64,000 nucleotides of DNA from Spirochaetales bacterium (GTDB lineage Bacteria; Spirochaetota; Spirochaetia; DSM-2461). Where the stretch lies: NCBI GenBank assembly GCA_028533045.1, contig JAQQAP010000037.1, forward strand, positions 62,001 to 126,000. The letters are read 5' to 3'. The number at the start of each line of letters is the position of its first letter. Positions within the stretch are counted from its first letter, which is position 1. This document shows, in pieces, positions 48,894-57,282 of this stretch. A program made the position numbers and the translations under genes. The notes beneath the pieces were generated by a model. That model ran no database searches, was not told the origin of the DNA, and saw only the letters and a program-made list of their open reading frames with translations.

Positions 48894-49557
48894 AACCGGC
48901 TCCCCGGACAGTATGAATCAACTTAGGCTCAAATTCCTTGTCTATACGGCTGCGCAGACGGGAGACAAGAACATCCACCACGTTGGTTTGGGGGTCAAAA
49001 TTCCAGTTCCATATTTTTTCCAGAATGAGAGTCTTTGTCAGAACATTGCCCTGATTACGCAGGAAAAGTTCCAGAAGGGCGTATTCTCTAGGCTGAAGTT
49101 CTATCTGCTGGCCGGCCCGCACGACTTTTCGGGAAAGGAGTTCTACCTCAAGGTCGGCGCAGCTCAGGCGGGTAACTTCCCGGCTTTCATGGCCCGATCC
49201 CGCCCGGCGTACCAGGGTTTCAATTCTCACGAGGAGTTCGGAAAAGGCGAAGGGTTTGGTCAAATAGTCATCGCCTCCTGCCTTGAGTCCGGTGACTCTG
49301 TCGTCAACGGTCTGCTTGGCGCTAAGTATCAGAACGGGAAAGTTCTTCCCTCCGTTGCGCAATTCATTCAGTACATCGAGACCTTCCATTCCGGGAAGCA
49401 TCAGGTCAAGTATAACTGCTTCATATTCTCCTGACAGACCCATCATCAGTCCGTCATCTCCCCGTTCGGCCCAGTCAAGACTGTGCCCTTCCTGTTCAAA
49501 ACCTTTCTGAATGAACGAACCGATTCCCCGGTCGTCTTCAATTAGTAAAATTTTCAA
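48871..49557 (-). CDS. OmpR-family response regulator (TTG start)
   Basis: This 228-aa regulator has a receiver domain with acidic pocket Glu7-Asp8-Asp9 and phosphoacceptor Asp51 (VILDLMLPG), KPF near residue 100, and a C-terminal winged-helix DNA-binding domain (ELQPREYALLELFLRN; VLVSRLRSRIDKEFE; TVRGAGYVL). The start is put at TTG 49557, overlapping the FHA-GGDEF stop as TTGA, with GGAGG a few nt upstream. An ATG at 49569 would place the Shine-Dalgarno inside the protein and add four atypical residues. It is coupled to the kinase gene downstream. Confidence 0.92.
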   Translation of the reverse strand: MKILLIEDDRGIGSFIQKGFEQEGHSLDWAERGDDGLMMGLSGEYEAVILDLMLPGMEGLDVLNELRNGGKNFPVLILSAKQTVDDRVTGLKAGGDDYLTKPFAFSELLVRIETLVRRAGSGHESREVTRLSCADLEVELLSRKVVRAGQQIELQPREYALLELFLRNQGNVLTKTLILEKIWNWNFDPQTNVVDVLVSRLRSRIDKEFEPKLIHTVRGAGYVLKEPV

Positions 49558-50483
49558 GTTTCCTCCCATTCAACCCGGTTTCTCCCGTTGTTTTTGGCCC
49601 GGTAAAGGGCTCTGTCCGCTGCGGCGATAAGATCTTCTGCGGTGGCACATCTTTCGCTAACTCCCGCTACTCCCAGGGAAATGGTCACCTTAACACCGGC
49701 TTCTTTAACGACATTGTCACAAATACGCTGACGGCACATGTCGGCCATGGTCAGGGCGTGGTCAGGTGTTGTTTCGGGCAGGATGAAGGCCATTTCTTCC
49801 CCTCCGTAACGGCAGAGAATATCCATATTACGGCTGGTCACTTTAAGTATTCGGGCGACAGTGCTAAGCACTTCATCTCCCTTTTGATGGCCGTAGGCGT
49901 CATTAAACTTTTTAAACCGGTCTATATCAATCATAATCAGGCTCAAGGGACGGTTGTACCGTACGGCCCGTTCAATTTCCTCTTCCAGTTTTTCATCCAT
50001 ATAACGGCGATTATAGAGCCCGGTAAGACCGTCTTTATTGGCTCTGAGAGAGAGGGATTCCCGCTTGTTGTTGAAAAATTGCTTGAGCCCCTCAATTCTT
50101 TCGGCGATACCCGGATCATCCACATCGTTCATCAGTTTGGATATCCGGTTTTCGAAAAGCATTGTGTCGCTGGGAAGAGCATCGGAAGGGGTGAGGTCCG
50201 CTTCGCGGGATACGAGCTCTAAATTACAGGATCCTATACGGAATTTTCCGTTGTCACGAAGGGGTATTTCCGTAATCCGTTCTCCCTCTACGAATGTCCC
50301 GTTGGTGCTGCCAAGGTCGCGAAGAATAAATGAGTCCCCCCGGCCTTCCAGAACAGCGTGATTTCGGGAAACCGATTTTTCAGGAAGAATAATACTGTTG
50401 TCCCAGTTTCTTCCCAGGGTGTAGGAGCGGTTGGGAGATATCTCGCTTTTCTTGTCCAGATAGTAAAGATGAAAAATCTTCAT
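49554..50483 (-). CDS. FHA-GGDEF protein, putative diguanylate cyclase
   Basis: This 309-aa soluble protein has an N-terminal FHA phosphothreonine-binding domain (residues 20-90; LGRNWDNSI, SRNHAVLEG, GSTNGTFVEG) and a C-terminal GGDEF domain (about 148-305). The signature is GGEEM at 227-231 rather than GG(D/E)EF. The inhibitory I-site RxxD is present at 218-221 (RNMD), five residues before it, and YNRRYMDEKL, DIDRFKKFND and SLGVAG are intact. It probably makes c-di-GMP under control of a phosphoprotein partner. The gene has its own promoter and is translationally coupled to the two-component system downstream. Confidence 0.88.
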   Translation of the reverse strand: MKIFHLYYLDKKSEISPNRSYTLGRNWDNSIILPEKSVSRNHAVLEGRGDSFILRDLGSTNGTFVEGERITEIPLRDNGKFRIGSCNLELVSREADLTPSDALPSDTMLFENRISKLMNDVDDPGIAERIEGLKQFFNNKRESLSLRANKDGLTGLYNRRYMDEKLEEEIERAVRYNRPLSLIMIDIDRFKKFNDAYGHQKGDEVLSTVARILKVTSRNMDILCRYGGEEMAFILPETTPDHALTMADMCRQRICDNVVKEAGVKVTISLGVAGVSERCATAEDLIAAADRALYRAKNNGRNRVEWEET

Positions 50484-50563: not shown

Positions 50564-53500
50564 TCAGAACGTCAGAGTTAGTTCAACACCCACTTCCGAG
50601 CCCAGGGTTGTTTCCGTTTCATCCACTTCCACGCCTGCTTTGAACCAGGCTTCCAGGGTTCCCAAGTCATCAATATAGAGTGTTGATTCATGGGTTAAGC
50701 CGATTTCGTGGGACCAGTCGTCTTCATCATCGTAGGAAAATTCATAACTTAGTTCTTCCGAGTTGGCCACATAACTCTCCTTATCCAGGATATACTGGGA
50801 GAGGGGAATCTTGCGGTAGGGTTCACGCTCTTTGTCCCAATCGTAGGAGAGGGAGAGCTGTTCCGTCGTTGAGGAACCGTCAAAATCGTAGGTCAGGTCA
50901 TTTTCTAAATTAAAAGAGGAGCCCCCTTCTCCCTGGAAACGGGTATAACTGTTCCAGGAGAAGCTTTCCCCCGCAGGATAATAGTCGTTTTTTTCTTCAA
51001 AGCTGAGCGTAAAGGAGTTGGCAATTTCCTCTGTGGTGTAGAAGTCAAAAGTCGGTTTAACCCCAAAGCTGCCAAAGAGGTTGAGGGCTCGTTGCTGGAG
51101 GGTAAAATCCCAGGTGTTTTTAAAGTAGCGTGAATCGGTTTCCCCTTCGTAGAGTCTGGAAAAGGTGGCTTGGGCCAGTGAGGGCAGGTAGAGATCTTTT
51201 GTACTGGAACCGTAGTTCCGTGTGAGGGTTAATCCCAATTCGGGGGTGTAACTGTAGGTTCCCTCTTCCGGGAGAGTGTTCATCACATCGGCGCTGTCGG
51301 CCAGCTCCCAGAAGGGGATAAAGTGGGTTAGGGGAAGGACCGGACCCACCTGTTTTCCCCAGTTTTCGTAGTCCGATGAGAAACTTCCCGAATAGTCTTC
51401 CTCTTCTGTTACGGAAAGGGTACGGCTGTATTCGGGAGTCAGAGTTATATTCTGACTTCCTCCAAAGCTGATGGGAAGGGAAAGGGTCGTGTCCAGTTCA
51501 CTCGTCTGTTCCCAGTCGGAACTGTAGTCCAAGTCGGTACTTAAACTGACGTCAAGGGAGGGAGAAAAACGTTCACCTTTGTATGTGAGGGAAAAATCTC
51601 CGTCCGTGGCCCGGTCGTCTACCTCCGTTTCATCGGGGATGAAGTAGGTCCAGGAGTCAGCCCATACGGTAAAATAGCCTGAATTGTGCTTTTCCTCTTC
51701 ATCCGATTCAATGGACCAGTCACTTTCCAGGGAACTCTTCCATTTCTCTCCGGAATAGTTTAGCTCCGCCGACCACTCCTGTTCCAGTTCTTCCTGTTCC
51801 AGTACCGCTTCATGGTCTCCCGTCAGAGTCACCCTACCGGTCGGCTTGACCGTGGCCGAAGCGGTGTGGCTCAGGAGGGGCGAGTCGCTGTCATCGCCCA
51901 GGGCAAAAGACTCTTCCACCACGACAGGGGAATCGGCGGTGGGAAATTCCAGACTGTGGCCGCCCCAAAGGGCATAGGTTCCGTCTTCGTAGCTTCCGTC
52001 TCCCTGTATCCCCACTCCCAGATACATGATGTCCACGCCGGTCAAGCCGTCGAAGGAGAGGGAGCCTTCATCGTCGGCCATTCCTCCGTTTCTCCCGGTG
52101 GCCGAAGCATAGGTGGAGAGGTCCAGTGAGTAGTTGGCCAGCCATTTGAAGCCCTTCGCTCCTGTGAGGATCTCTTCCCGGTCATATTCAAGATTTACCG
52201 TAGCCTTTCCATTGAGGGCCAGAATCGATTCCTCAAAGTAAAGTTCGTCCACATAGAAGGTTCCCGAACTTGATCCGGTCCCGCTAAAGAAGACTCGGCT
52301 GACCGATGTGACTCCCGAGTCGATATCAAGACTGATGTTTTGGGCGCCCTCATCGAAGGTGGCCCTCTCTTCGCTTAAGTCTATGGTGACCTTCTGCCAG
52401 TCCGTAACGGTCCCGTCCGCTTCCCAGGAGAGGGTAATACCTTCGTAATCCGTATCGGTGAGTTCCATGGTAAAGGTGCCCGTGCTATCTTCCGTTTTGA
52501 CAAAGAAAATAAGTTTGCCGAATTCCCGGGGATCCTGGGCGTCGATCCAGCTGACCGCTTCCCAGTCGTCGCTTGTATCCAGTCCGCTCCAGCTGATTTT
52601 GGCCACCCTTTGATCGGAATCGTCCGAGTGAAACTGGTCTATTTCGTCGGAGTAGGCCGACTCCAAATCATCGTCATCCTCTTCGCTCTGACTGACTTCT
52701 GCGTCGGTTTCGCTGCTGTTGAGGGTCATGGCGAAGGTTTGTCCCACGAATTCGACCTCACCCAGGTAGACCGTACTGTTCCCATCTTCCCAGTAGTCGT
52801 CGGCGTAGTTGTCTCCGGTAGTGCCCCCGTTGGCAAAGATAAAACGGAGGGAACGGGTGGCCGAGAGGCATTGGCGGTCGTCCGAGTCCAGTTCCCAGGT
52901 GACCTGTGTCCAGCTACTACTCAGATCAGCTGCGTCGATAATATGGGTGGCCACCAGGGAGTCGTCATAGTCTTCTATGGTGTCGTCATCGTCAAAATCG
53001 TCGTATTCACCCACCTCTCCCAGTTTGAGAACGATATCTCCGGGAGTGCCGCTGGGGACTTGTACGTAGAAGCGAACTTCCTGTAGGGTGGAGTAGTCTG
53101 CCGTACCGCTGGAGGTAAGGTGGAGGTCCGCACCGGTCCATTCCCCGTCTTCCAGGGTAAAGACCGATTCGAGCATGTAGTCGTCGATATAGGCTGTGGT
53201 CGAGTCCGCCTCAAGAGGACCGTCACCGTCGTTCATTACAATGTAATCAGCTTCGTCATAATCGTTATCCGTTTCTCCCTCTCCCGCCTTTGGTTCTGCC
53301 AGGGCTTCTTCGTAGACCGGATAGGATGAGAGAGCATCCTCCATGCCCATAACGCTCTGCAGGCCGTCGGCATCGCCCAAATCAGCTTCACCAACCAGTT
53401 CGGTGGTCAGGCTGAATGACTCGTTTGTGTGATCCCAGGTGGTTCCCAGAGAAAGGGTTCCCCCGTCGGGGGTGGAGTAGTCCGTTCCGTCGGGGAAGAC

Positions 53501-55138
53501 CCAGTTGAAGGAGGCGGCCAGTTCGATTTTGTCCTTTTCGGAGAGGGTAAAGCGGTTCCCCTGGTAAATCAGCATCTCCTGCCCTTCAAAGCTGAGGGCT
53601 TCCTGGCGGTAGGAGATGACGATGCGGTCGTCGGGGAAGATGTAGCGGTTGAAGGTGATTTCCCCTGTGTCGCCGTCCAGGCTGTAGTTGTACTCCGATT
53701 CGCCGTTTACCGTAATACTTACCGAACCGGCTACGACTCCGCTCCCCAGGGTGTAGCCGCTGGAGCTGTTTTTGGTTATGAGTTGGAGCTGTTCCGAAAC
53801 CAGATCGGAGTCGTTGTAAGGGGCGTTTCCGTAGACTTCCGGATGGGTGTCCCCCAGGGGGTAGCGGTTCAGAGCGTCCCGGTCGTCCGAATCGGAGCGG
53901 TAGAGGGTGATAATATTGTCGGAAGTGTCCGCTTCCCAGGAGAAGTCGTCGGGGGTATCCGTTTCGTCCCCGTTCCGGTCTACCAGGTTCAGGTCGTTGC
54001 GCCAGCTATCGGAAGAGAGGCTTTGGCTGTAGGAGTAGCGGCTGTAGACGGCAAAGGGGGAGAAACGGTCCGGCTCGTAGATGAGGAGACAGTCATTTCC
54101 GTCGATGCTTTCCAGGCGGGATTCGTTCCAGTTCCGGTCCAGAGTGTCGTAGGGGTCTTCTGTGGTCCAGGTAAATGCTTCCGGTGTTCCATCCACATCG
54201 GGAATACCCGTATCGAGGCCCGTGGGAGGGATGATTGAATCATCTCCCAATTCATCAGCTCCTATCTCATAAGTTCCAACCGTATAAAACACCGCAATAG
54301 GACCGTCTTCGTCATCCTCTATTGTCAGAATCCCCTTTTCGCTGTCCAAAAGGTAGTCCCCCTCTTCGGCCAGGCGATAGCTGTAGTTAGAGGTGGAGGC
54401 GTCGTAATCTCCGTCGTCATCCTGTATATAGACCAGAAGGTCCTCGGACTCCACATCGCTGTCGGGGAGGACGAATTTCCGGTTTTCCAAATAGTCGTAG
54501 AGTTCAAAGTACTCTTCATCAGCCTCAAAGGAGCCAATGTAGGTCTTGCTGTCTTCCCAGGTGCCGTCAAATCGGACCATGAATTCATTCTGCATCTTTT
54601 CCGTTTCACCTTTTATGGTGAGTCCCGGAGTATTGTATTCGGGGCTGGAAACGGAGAGGCCTGCATAGCTGTCTGTGGTTATATCCGTATTTCCGATTTT
54701 GACTGACTGGAGGTATTCATCATCGGCGCCCTGGTATCCTACGAGATAGGTATTGTAGTCGTAGTCTTCCACGACGCTGGTTTCCAAAAAATAGCGGTCG
54801 TCTATCCAGAGGGAGAGGAGAAGGTCCGGGGCCTGCTCAAAGAAAAATCCGTCGGTATAGTCCGAATAGGTGGAGCTCCAATCCATAGAACCTTCATCCA
54901 CGGAAAAGGCCAGCCCGGCGGAAAAAGTAAAACGCCAATAGCCGTCCCAGTAAAAGTCCACATTGCTGTCGTCCAGGGAATAGGACCATATATGGGAAGG
55001 GGCTTCTTCCTGAATTTCTCCCGTTTCACCTTCTTCTGTGGTTGATTCGGAAAGGCTTGTTTCTTCCGCAAAGAGAAGGGCGGAGAAAAGAAACAGGAGG
55101 AGTAGGGCAGCAAAAAAAGTGTGTGCTTTTATTTTCAC
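50564..55138 (-). CDS. Large outer-membrane protein, possibly SprA-like (1524 aa)
   Basis: A signal peptide (cleavage near Ala24, LLFA|EE) is followed by a beta-rich protein ending in GVELTLTF. The N-terminal third has phrases recalling SprA/Sov of Bacteroidota: YLVGYQGADDEYLQSVKIGN, then LLVYIQDDDGDYD, EEGDYLLDSEKGILTI and SLDGDTGEITFNRYIFPDDR. The middle contains two jelly-roll, CBM-like segments (DLSSSWTQVTWELDS; TDWQKVTIDLSEERA with GTFYVDELYFEES). The last roughly 500 residues alternate like barrel strands. The start is GTG 55138 without a Shine-Dalgarno. SprA forms the type 9 secretion channel, but the relation here is only a pattern resemblance and the protein is much shorter. Confidence 0.55.
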   Translation of the reverse strand: MKIKAHTFFAALLLLFLFSALLFAEETSLSESTTEEGETGEIQEEAPSHIWSYSLDDSNVDFYWDGYWRFTFSAGLAFSVDEGSMDWSSTYSDYTDGFFFEQAPDLLLSLWIDDRYFLETSVVEDYDYNTYLVGYQGADDEYLQSVKIGNTDITTDSYAGLSVSSPEYNTPGLTIKGETEKMQNEFMVRFDGTWEDSKTYIGSFEADEEYFELYDYLENRKFVLPDSDVESEDLLVYIQDDDGDYDASTSNYSYRLAEEGDYLLDSEKGILTIEDDEDGPIAVFYTVGTYEIGADELGDDSIIPPTGLDTGIPDVDGTPEAFTWTTEDPYDTLDRNWNESRLESIDGNDCLLIYEPDRFSPFAVYSRYSYSQSLSSDSWRNDLNLVDRNGDETDTPDDFSWEADTSDNIITLYRSDSDDRDALNRYPLGDTHPEVYGNAPYNDSDLVSEQLQLITKNSSSGYTLGSGVVAGSVSITVNGESEYNYSLDGDTGEITFNRYIFPDDRIVISYRQEALSFEGQEMLIYQGNRFTLSEKDKIELAASFNWVFPDGTDYSTPDGGTLSLGTTWDHTNESFSLTTELVGEADLGDADGLQSVMGMEDALSSYPVYEEALAEPKAGEGETDNDYDEADYIVMNDGDGPLEADSTTAYIDDYMLESVFTLEDGEWTGADLHLTSSGTADYSTLQEVRFYVQVPSGTPGDIVLKLGEVGEYDDFDDDDTIEDYDDSLVATHIIDAADLSSSWTQVTWELDSDDRQCLSATRSLRFIFANGGTTGDNYADDYWEDGNSTVYLGEVEFVGQTFAMTLNSSETDAEVSQSEEDDDDLESAYSDEIDQFHSDDSDQRVAKISWSGLDTSDDWEAVSWIDAQDPREFGKLIFFVKTEDSTGTFTMELTDTDYEGITLSWEADGTVTDWQKVTIDLSEERATFDEGAQNISLDIDSGVTSVSRVFFSGTGSSSGTFYVDELYFEESILALNGKATVNLEYDREEILTGAKGFKWLANYSLDLSTYASATGRNGGMADDEGSLSFDGLTGVDIMYLGVGIQGDGSYEDGTYALWGGHSLEFPTADSPVVVEESFALGDDSDSPLLSHTASATVKPTGRVTLTGDHEAVLEQEELEQEWSAELNYSGEKWKSSLESDWSIESDEEEKHNSGYFTVWADSWTYFIPDETEVDDRATDGDFSLTYKGERFSPSLDVSLSTDLDYSSDWEQTSELDTTLSLPISFGGSQNITLTPEYSRTLSVTEEEDYSGSFSSDYENWGKQVGPVLPLTHFIPFWELADSADVMNTLPEEGTYSYTPELGLTLTRNYGSSTKDLYLPSLAQATFSRLYEGETDSRYFKNTWDFTLQQRALNLFGSFGVKPTFDFYTTEEIANSFTLSFEEKNDYYPAGESFSWNSYTRFQGEGGSSFNLENDLTYDFDGSSTTEQLSLSYDWDKEREPYRKIPLSQYILDKESYVANSEELSYEFSYDDEDDWSHEIGLTHESTLYIDDLGTLEAWFKAGVEVDETETTLGSEVGVELTLTF

Positions 55139-55234: not shown

Positions 55235-56167
55235 ATGAATGAGAATAACAGAATCGACAGAGAAAAGGCGCAGCAGTTTGTTATACGGCTTATGTCCAAT
55301 CCGGCCCTTCAAGGATTGGCTCCTCTGAAAAAGGAGCAGCAAATAGCCTACTTCCTCAAGGTGAATGAAGAACAGCTTCTTCCCACTCTATGTTCTCCGG
55401 CATTTTTCCCGGGTATGGACCGCAAGCAAATTAATGCCTTGCTAATAGGGGTTCTCAGGGAAATGACAAATCAAACGATTCTTCCTCCCCTTAAACAATT
55501 CATTACCGGTTCTCTCCGTCCCTCTGCTCTTAGCTGTGCGGTAAAGGATAAGGATGCGAATATTAATGCCATGAGAGAAGCCTTGTGGAAGATGACTACT
55601 TCCGTTCTTTCTTCTTCCGAAGGCCGGGACGGTCTTATTCCGGCAATTACCCTCTTTGCTTCACCCCTTTTTAACCGTTATGTTCCCCAGTTTATCACCC
55701 GTCAGAAATATATCTCTTTTGAGATACGTATGGTGCAGCGCTTTAAAGAAATTCCTGAGAATATTGTGGATATTCTAAAATTGACAGTTCTTCTCAAACC
55801 CATTGTTCATACTTTTCTTGATAATACGGGGGAGCTTATCAACGGCTGTATCTCTCTTCCCTATGCGAATCAGATTGTTCGTCAGCTTCATGAAAAATAT
55901 CCCGCCCTGCCGGAAATACTTCTTCAAGGAATCGTTCATTCCAATGTCTCCTTTGCCGAGAGCCGGGACCTTCCCGCAACAAGCCGGCTAGGTGCGATTT
56001 TTACTCAAAGGGCGATTAACTGGAATCCGGATCAGAAAATTGACCGGGGGGCGGAAAGTTCCGATAAAAGTTGGTTCAGTATTGCCCGTAAAAACTATAA
56101 ATATTACGGTTACGACATGGATATGCTCATGGAATTATATAATATTGCGGCAGAGATGGGGTGGTAG
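55235..56167 (+). CDS. Unrecognised cytoplasmic protein, coupled to a voltage-sensor protein
   Basis: This 310-aa protein is predominantly helical in appearance, with no signal peptide, membrane helix or nucleotide-binding motif. Visible features are an N-terminal helical stretch (about 8-110), ISFEIRMVQRFKEIPENIVD near residue 165, and a C-terminal aromatic segment ARKNYKYYGYDMDMLMELYN. I do not recognise the family. Its stop is 2 bp before the ATG of the voltage-sensor/HAMP-like protein, so the two are surely cotranscribed and may work together. Confidence 0.7.
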   Translation: MNENNRIDREKAQQFVIRLMSNPALQGLAPLKKEQQIAYFLKVNEEQLLPTLCSPAFFPGMDRKQINALLIGVLREMTNQTILPPLKQFITGSLRPSALSCAVKDKDANINAMREALWKMTTSVLSSSEGRDGLIPAITLFASPLFNRYVPQFITRQKYISFEIRMVQRFKEIPENIVDILKLTVLLKPIVHTFLDNTGELINGCISLPYANQIVRQLHEKYPALPEILLQGIVHSNVSFAESRDLPATSRLGAIFTQRAINWNPDQKIDRGAESSDKSWFSIARKNYKYYGYDMDMLMELYNIAAEMGW

Positions 56168-56169
56168 AG

Positions 56170-57282
56170 ATGAATAGACGATTCAATCAATTTATGGAAA
56201 ACCTGGTAATGGCCGTTATTTTTTTGGTTTTGGTTCAGACCTTTCTTTCCGATTTGGCTGTGGCTGCCGATTGGCCCTGGTCCTTTCGACAACTTATGAT
56301 CTGGACCGCTTTTGCCTTTGACCTTTTCTTTACCCTTGAATTTCTTATTCGCTTTTTTTCCGCTCTCTACAGGGGAGAGGGGGCGAAATATTTCTTTTAT
56401 CGCCAAGGGTGGGTGGATTTCATCGTTTCCGTCCCTTTGCTGCTTTTTAGTTCCACCCCGGAACTTTTTACCCTGTTAACGGGAACGGTTGTGGGCGGTT
56501 TCGGTGGTGTTCTGAACATCCTTAAGGTGGTTAAATCTATTCGAATCGCTCGGATGCTTCGGCTTTTACGTATCCTAAAAATCTTCAAGCACATCAAATA
56601 TGCCGATTCTGTCATGGCCCAGCGTCATAGTTCCCGTATCATTACCACCGTGGTGACATCTATTATTCTGGCTTTGACACTTATGTCTTTCACGGCCTCA
56701 TTTTTCTATCTGAACGATTTGGCAGGAAACTATGAGAAGGACCAGAAAGAGAATATGCTCTATCTTCTGGCCGACGGCCGACTGGAAGCGGATCATGGGA
56801 AGCTTGCTGAATTTTGCGAAACCCAAACGGACTTTCTCATCATCAAGAAAGAGGGACGTGATCTATACAGCCGTTACAGTCAGGACTACTACAACGAATA
56901 TTACGGCTTTAGCGACTACGGTTATCTTTCTGCCGGGGGATATGGATTTTATTATGACCTCAAGCCTTTGAACGTGAGCGATGGCTGGGCCAGTCTAGTT
57001 GTTTTTGTAGAAATCATTCTGGTAATACTTATTCTGATGGTTACCTACAGTCCCCATTTTGCCATTAATGTGACCGATCCCATTAATATTATGACAAAAG
57101 GGCTGAATGAAGAAGCATACAATCTTGAAGTGTCCATTCCGGAAAATTATAAAGATGACGATATATTTCGACTGGCCCGGAGCTTTAATAACGAATACCT
57201 GCCGTTAAAAGCTCGGAACGGGGAGAAGGAAAACAGACCGGCCCTGGATCTGAGTGATCTGGACGATCTGTTTAAAAACTGA
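56170..57282 (+). CDS. Voltage-sensor domain fused to periplasmic loop and HAMP-like segment
   Basis: This 370-aa membrane protein begins with a four-helix voltage-sensor (Ion_trans-like) domain: S1 at 8-32; S2 at 39-67 with DLFFTLEFLIRFF; S3 with GWVDFIVSVPLLLF; and S4 with basic residues every third position (KSIRIARMLRLLRILKIFK). No pore helix or selectivity filter follows. A fifth helix (TTVVTSIILALTLMSFTASF), a Tyr-rich periplasmic part of about 90 residues, a sixth helix (VVFVEIILVILILMVTY) and a HAMP-like segment (DPINIMTKGLNEEAYNLEV; DDDIFRLARSFNN) come next. It ends in an acidic tail with no output domain. ATG 56170 is preferred over GTG 56161, which overlaps the previous gene. Confidence 0.7.
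   Translation: MNRRFNQFMENLVMAVIFLVLVQTFLSDLAVAADWPWSFRQLMIWTAFAFDLFFTLEFLIRFFSALYRGEGAKYFFYRQGWVDFIVSVPLLLFSSTPELFTLLTGTVVGGFGGVLNILKVVKSIRIARMLRLLRILKIFKHIKYADSVMAQRHSSRIITTVVTSIILALTLMSFTASFFYLNDLAGNYEKDQKENMLYLLADGRLEADHGKLAEFCETQTDFLIIKKEGRDLYSRYSQDYYNEYYGFSDYGYLSAGGYGFYYDLKPLNVSDGWASLVVFVEIILVILILMVTYSPHFAINVTDPINIMTKGLNEEAYNLEVSIPENYKDDDIFRLARSFNNEYLPLKARNGEKENRPALDLSDLDDLFKN

Follow-up and report, generated by a model that had tools for sequence, protein, structure and literature searches.

The window analysed here, a stretch of 64,000 nt, contains two tandem genes on the forward strand that are separated by 2 nt. The first (55235..56167, +) encodes P0002, a soluble protein of 310 aa that was predicted to be all-helical and belonged to no Pfam or NCBIfam family. 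The second, directly downstream (56170..57282, +), encodes P0001, a protein of 370 aa with a predicted voltage sensor and a HAMP domain. Its open reading frame spans 56170-57279, with the stop codon extending to 57282, and there is an alternative GTG start at 56161. The gene diverging from the pair (50564..55138, -) encodes a 1524-aa protein of outer-membrane-like composition without a Pfam match, one of a family of 1500-1700 aa proteins whose genes adjoin the pair over a large part of the class. It was considered as a third member of the unit and rejected: the synteny holds in much of the class and not in distant clades, which carry the pair without this gene, so it probably lies outside the core unit. 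On the same strand, the gene at 49554-50483 (-) combines FHA and GGDEF domains in one protein, a diguanylate cyclase under forkhead-associated control.

A preliminary description of this DNA had proposed that P0001 joins a well-formed S1-S4 voltage-sensor domain to a HAMP-like relay. In agreement with the first part, the Pfam Ion_trans family matched residues 9-180 above the cut-off (E 1.3e-7) and was found in 21 out of 22 orthologues. The AlphaFold2 model, built from a 74-sequence alignment (pLDDT 86.9, pTM 0.80), folded S1-S4 as a four-helix unit, followed by an S5-like helix, a periplasmic domain, a transmembrane helix (265-313) and a second HAMP helix (331-354). Conservation was assessed in alignments of 22 and 74 family members. 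S1 (residues 3-32; 56176..56265, +) carries a conserved acidic residue near its outer end, D28 (68 D and 6 E among 74 homologues). S2 (37-67; 56278..56370, +) contains D51 and the charge-transfer-centre signature F54xxE57xxxR61, S3 (80-104; 56407..56481, +) the invariant D83, and S4 (114-139; 56509..56586, +) the series K119, K122, R125, R128, R131, R134 and K137, with K140 and K143 lying past the predicted helix. While at least five basic residues at three-residue spacing had been claimed for S4, nine were found (residues 119-143), seven of them conserved. When P0001 was shuffled 20,000 times, the longest run of this kind was seven, obtained once, and nine was never reached. D51, F54, E57, D83, R125, R131 and R134 were unchanged in all 74 homologues, K119, K122 and R128 in 73 each, K137 was K in 72 and R in two, and R61 deviated in at most two; the gating residues were thus invariant or nearly so in an alignment with a mean column identity of 39%. 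Finally, a PDB profile search matched S2-S4 to Kv3.1 (E 9e-4) and Kv1.2 with each gating charge in register, and F54xxE57xxxR61 and D83 lined up with the voltage sensors of both channels, confirming the charge-transfer-like motif that had been noticed in S2.

Downstream of the sensor come the near-invariant S4-S5 linker motif MAQRH (149-153; 56614..56628, +) and the S5-like transmembrane helix (148-178; 56611..56703, +). The Ion_trans match covered profile positions 4-156 of 241, stopping after S5, whereas a complete Ion_trans protein elsewhere in this genome, used as an internal control, aligned over 3-237/241. No K+-type filter motif was present in any of the 74 homologues. Where a channel has its pore helix and filter, the model placed an alpha/beta domain in the periplasm (about 184-263; 56719..56958, +), composed of a helix (184-202), two strands, a helix and two further strands in a PAS/Cache-like order. 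The earlier view that a periplasmic loop replaces the pore therefore held as regards the pore, while the loop has to be redrawn as a folded domain, since AlphaFold2 gave this region an alpha/beta fold. A fold search of the full model against the PDB returned nothing significant, WalK being the top match (E 0.23).

The last transmembrane helix (265-313; 56962..57108, +) continues into the first helix (AS1) of the HAMP domain (about 299-352; 57064..57225, +; DPxxVMxRG ... YNLEV ... DDIFRLAxxYN), whose region was modelled as two helices in the P0001 monomer. The Pfam HAMP profile gave a single-sequence match at residues 308-341 that fell below the cut-off (E 0.45). Profile-profile comparison supported HAMP: the C-terminal profile of P0001 matched that of 30 HAMP sites of the same genome with a probability of 93.2% in the expected register, and with 65% when the soluble part alone was used. 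Other segments did not exceed 2.4%, nor column shuffles 2.1%. These results bear out the HAMP-like segment proposed after the last helix. P0001 terminates about 18 residues past HAMP, in a conserved acidic and hydrophobic tail (LSDLDDLFKN; 57247..57279, +) that is kept where the partner is present and is a candidate docking motif; a covalent output domain behind HAMP, as in MCP or histidine kinase receptors, is absent. Three outcomes contrary to the preliminary interpretation (a pore helix and filter after S4, no VSD-like four-helix bundle, no HAMP fold after the last helix) were looked for and none was found in the predicted structure and profiles, which supports that interpretation.

The 310-aa protein had been named as the obvious candidate for the output, and the neighbourhood survey in spirochaetes strengthened this proposal. 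At 74 of the 80 named loci the partner gene was immediately upstream of the sensor gene, with a contig end accounting for two of the other six, and the spacing lay between -30 and +60 nt in 72 of the 74 adjacent pairs. The pair persisted between clades whose other neighbours all differ. In a sample of 393 Spirochaetota genomes, the partner profile matched 117. Eighteen of these lacked a sensor match: lineage-specific queries revealed a divergent sensor in 16, and the remaining two were fragmented drafts. Partners truly without a sensor were thus very rare, seen only as a second copy in genome G074 and in one genus, in which the gene (L203:2624-3535, L207:2580-3491) follows directly after the export genes fliP-fliQ-fliR. 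A second partner-family gene (L206:6577-7503, E 4.5e-44; the genome's other copy is at L209) diverges from a 1578-aa gene and has no adjoining sensor. The AlphaFold2 model of P0002 was all-helical (pLDDT 94.7), and searches against Pfam, NCBIfam and PDB profiles gave no convincing match. The top hit of its fold search, the HD-GYP protein Bd1817 (E 0.84, TM 0.31), was not significant, and we claim no such identity. A mirror-distance test detected no more co-divergence between sensor and partner than with an unrelated neighbour, that is, nothing beyond shared phylogeny.

Of 61 related genomes, 36 contained an orthologue of P0001, at about 40-50% identity. A wider scan, covering the genomes of 84,980 prokaryote species, yielded 97 relatives, and the 80 listed were all from Spirochaetota. 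Among the 393 genomes sampled from the phylum, 141 matched the sensor profile, a figure that includes some ordinary channels, and 71 of these matched strongly. The A3 match in G076 (L204) was rejected as a family member, being an ordinary K+ channel with a pore, and other weak A3 matches were left out of the membership.

Individual modules have been lost in several lineages. Family f66 lacks the periplasmic domain and retains the voltage sensor, HAMP and the partner. The sensor stops just past the last transmembrane helix in L150 and L199 (both f35) and in L200 (f33), and its HAMP is degraded in L149 (f34); none of these four genomes has the partner, so that HAMP loss or degradation and partner absence coincide in three families (f33, f34 and f35). 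HAMP is present without the partner in f39/f57, f64 g159, f37 and f69, where the tail is gone too except in f64 g159. At the other end of the protein, Borreliaceae-like homologues keep HAMP and the partner, with S4 reduced to three arginines and the S2 glutamate missing, and Brachyspira-like genomes retain the pair with HAMP and have lost S4. This pattern also shows that the predicted voltage sensor is degraded in some host-associated lineages and, given what these genomes keep, that it is dispensable there. The label Borreliaceae-like is our inference from a 0.9-Mb chromosome and gene order. In these genomes the degenerate pair is convergent to cheA-cheW-cheX-cheY (L141:9922-11828, L142:8981-10884, L201:7271-9174). 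By its gene order the pair may be BB_0674/BB_0675, on which a literature search returned nothing relevant. The overall pattern of losses fits a relay from the membrane domain to HAMP and the tail and on to the partner.

The domain make-up, the conservation of the gating residues, the lack of a pore, the HAMP domain and the two-gene unit are established at the level of sequence comparison and structure prediction, and the architecture and partner pairing are well supported. Its near-constant adjacency to one soluble partner makes the protein look like a dedicated, putative membrane-voltage sensor. We consider it probable that P0001 is a pore-less membrane-potential receptor that relays through HAMP to the separate 310-aa protein; voltage-driven S4 movement, dimerisation, the direction in which the signal travels and a physical contact with the partner are what we infer from this arrangement. 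A change in membrane potential would move the S4 charges through the charge-transfer centre formed by F54, E57 and D83. This movement would reach S5 and S6 via the conserved S4-S5 linker (MxQRH); these two helices carry the small periplasmic domain, which may be a second input. The S5/S6 pair would then act on the cytoplasmic HAMP, which would relay the state, probably as a dimer, to the 310-aa helical protein docked on HAMP and/or on the conserved acidic C-terminal tail.

The same layout could also be read from its other half. The S1-S4 bundle might be a structural or stimulus-integrating module, with the periplasmic PAS-like domain as the true input and any voltage dependence incidental. S5, periplasmic domain, S6 and HAMP do form a classical receptor layout, WalK was the top, although non-significant, fold match, and the Borreliaceae-like and Brachyspira-like homologues hold the pair despite a degraded S4. 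However, wherever the bundle is intact, the charge-transfer centre and the S4 charges are all fixed or almost fixed, and f66 has dispensed with the periplasmic domain while keeping the voltage sensor, HAMP and the partner. We therefore regard this explanation as unlikely. It is quite improbable that a separate channel owes its voltage dependence to P0001 as an auxiliary or silent subunit: in f64 g159 the next gene does encode an Ion_trans channel, but the other lineages examined have no adjoining channel gene, and HAMP and the 310-aa partner would be left unexplained. A proton path through S1-S4 of the Hv1 type, with HAMP and the partner as regulators, would need no separate pore and could draw on the conserved acid D28 of S1, and yet appears very improbable. 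D28 is predicted towards the outer end of S1 rather than mid-helix, S4 of P0001 contains no W, so that the Hv1-type combination of a mid-S1 aspartate and the RxWRxxR tryptophan of the eukaryotic proteins is missing, and prokaryotes are without Hv channels according to a 2023 review (PMC10377628). That P0001 is a functionless, decayed channel that has lost its pore would agree with its Ion_trans ancestry, but hardly merits consideration in view of the strong conservation among 74 sequences, the open frames and the stable two-gene unit.

Taking P0001 as a putative voltage receptor, we compared it with known systems. The voltage-sensing phosphatases (Ci-VSP) likewise have a pore-less S1-S4, with the F/E of S2, the D of S3 and the charges of S4, and link it to a signalling module in the cytoplasm. 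However, they are eukaryotic and carry a PTEN-like enzyme on a single polypeptide, whereas in P0001 no enzyme domain is attached, and HAMP follows two additional transmembrane helices that enclose a periplasmic domain. Hv1 and TMEM266 also consist of S1-S4 without an S5-S6 pore, TMEM266 being a voltage sensor whose output is not known, but both are eukaryotic and lack HAMP and the periplasmic domain. In the sperm Na+/H+ exchanger SLC9C1 a voltage sensor likewise governs something besides a pore, although there the output is a transporter within the same chain. Among bacterial proteins, the 6-TM channels (NaChBac, NavAb, KvAP and bacterial CNBD channels) are homologous to P0001 over S1-S4 and S5 (Pfam Ion_trans); P0001 differs in lacking the pore helix, filter and channel S6 and in having an 85-residue periplasmic domain and HAMP. 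Its second half, from S5 to HAMP, shares the layout of TM-PAS/Cache-TM-HAMP chemoreceptors and sensor kinases such as WalK, from which it departs by the voltage sensor added in front and by the lack of a kinase or MCP signalling domain after HAMP. Among the papers searched, none described a voltage sensor joined to HAMP, in keeping with the initial remark that this layout was not known as a characterised system. If voltage is sensed, a bacterial receptor would convert membrane potential to a signal via the HAMP device of chemoreceptors. The 2023 review states that every voltage-sensing domain known from prokaryotes comes with a pore for K+, Na+ or Ca2+ (PMC10377628); the P0001 family, kept across much of the phylum, is a counterexample.

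As to the output, FliG was present in 131 out of 134 carriers of sensor and/or partner (checked by eye), the three exceptions being incomplete drafts (73-88%), and both sensor and partner were absent from 40 of the 43 FliG-less genomes. The association (Fisher p 2.5e-5) is confounded by phylogeny, since most of the listed aflagellate genomes fall in one family, f9. Family f25 is flagellated yet has no sensor gene, and the sensor is therefore not required for motility. For these two reasons motility, our leading guess, is a plausible but weakly supported output. Goulbourne and Greenberg (J Bacteriol 1981 and 1983, as cited in PMC4841586) reported that membrane potential is involved in chemosensory transduction in Spirochaeta aurantia and that voltage clamp inhibits its chemotaxis. 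A dedicated membrane-potential pathway in flagellated spirochaetes, running from the voltage sensor through HAMP to the 310-aa protein and acting on motility or chemotaxis, is a tentative and rather doubtful proposal. If true, P0001 would be the first non-channel prokaryotic voltage receptor, and the sensor implied by the reports of 1981-83 might be a protein of this kind; in any case, the sensor and partner genes provide a concrete pair for this old question on S. aurantia membrane potential.

Two other gene arrangements were seen among loci without the partner. In f64 g159 (L107:1268-3810, L195-L198), the gene next after the sensor encodes a 446-aa channel with Ion_trans and cyclic-nucleotide-binding domains, and in another clade (L108:4360-7721, L109 and L188-L192) the sensor gene follows a gene for a caspase-domain protein (Peptidase_C14) and precedes one for a polysaccharide deacetylase.
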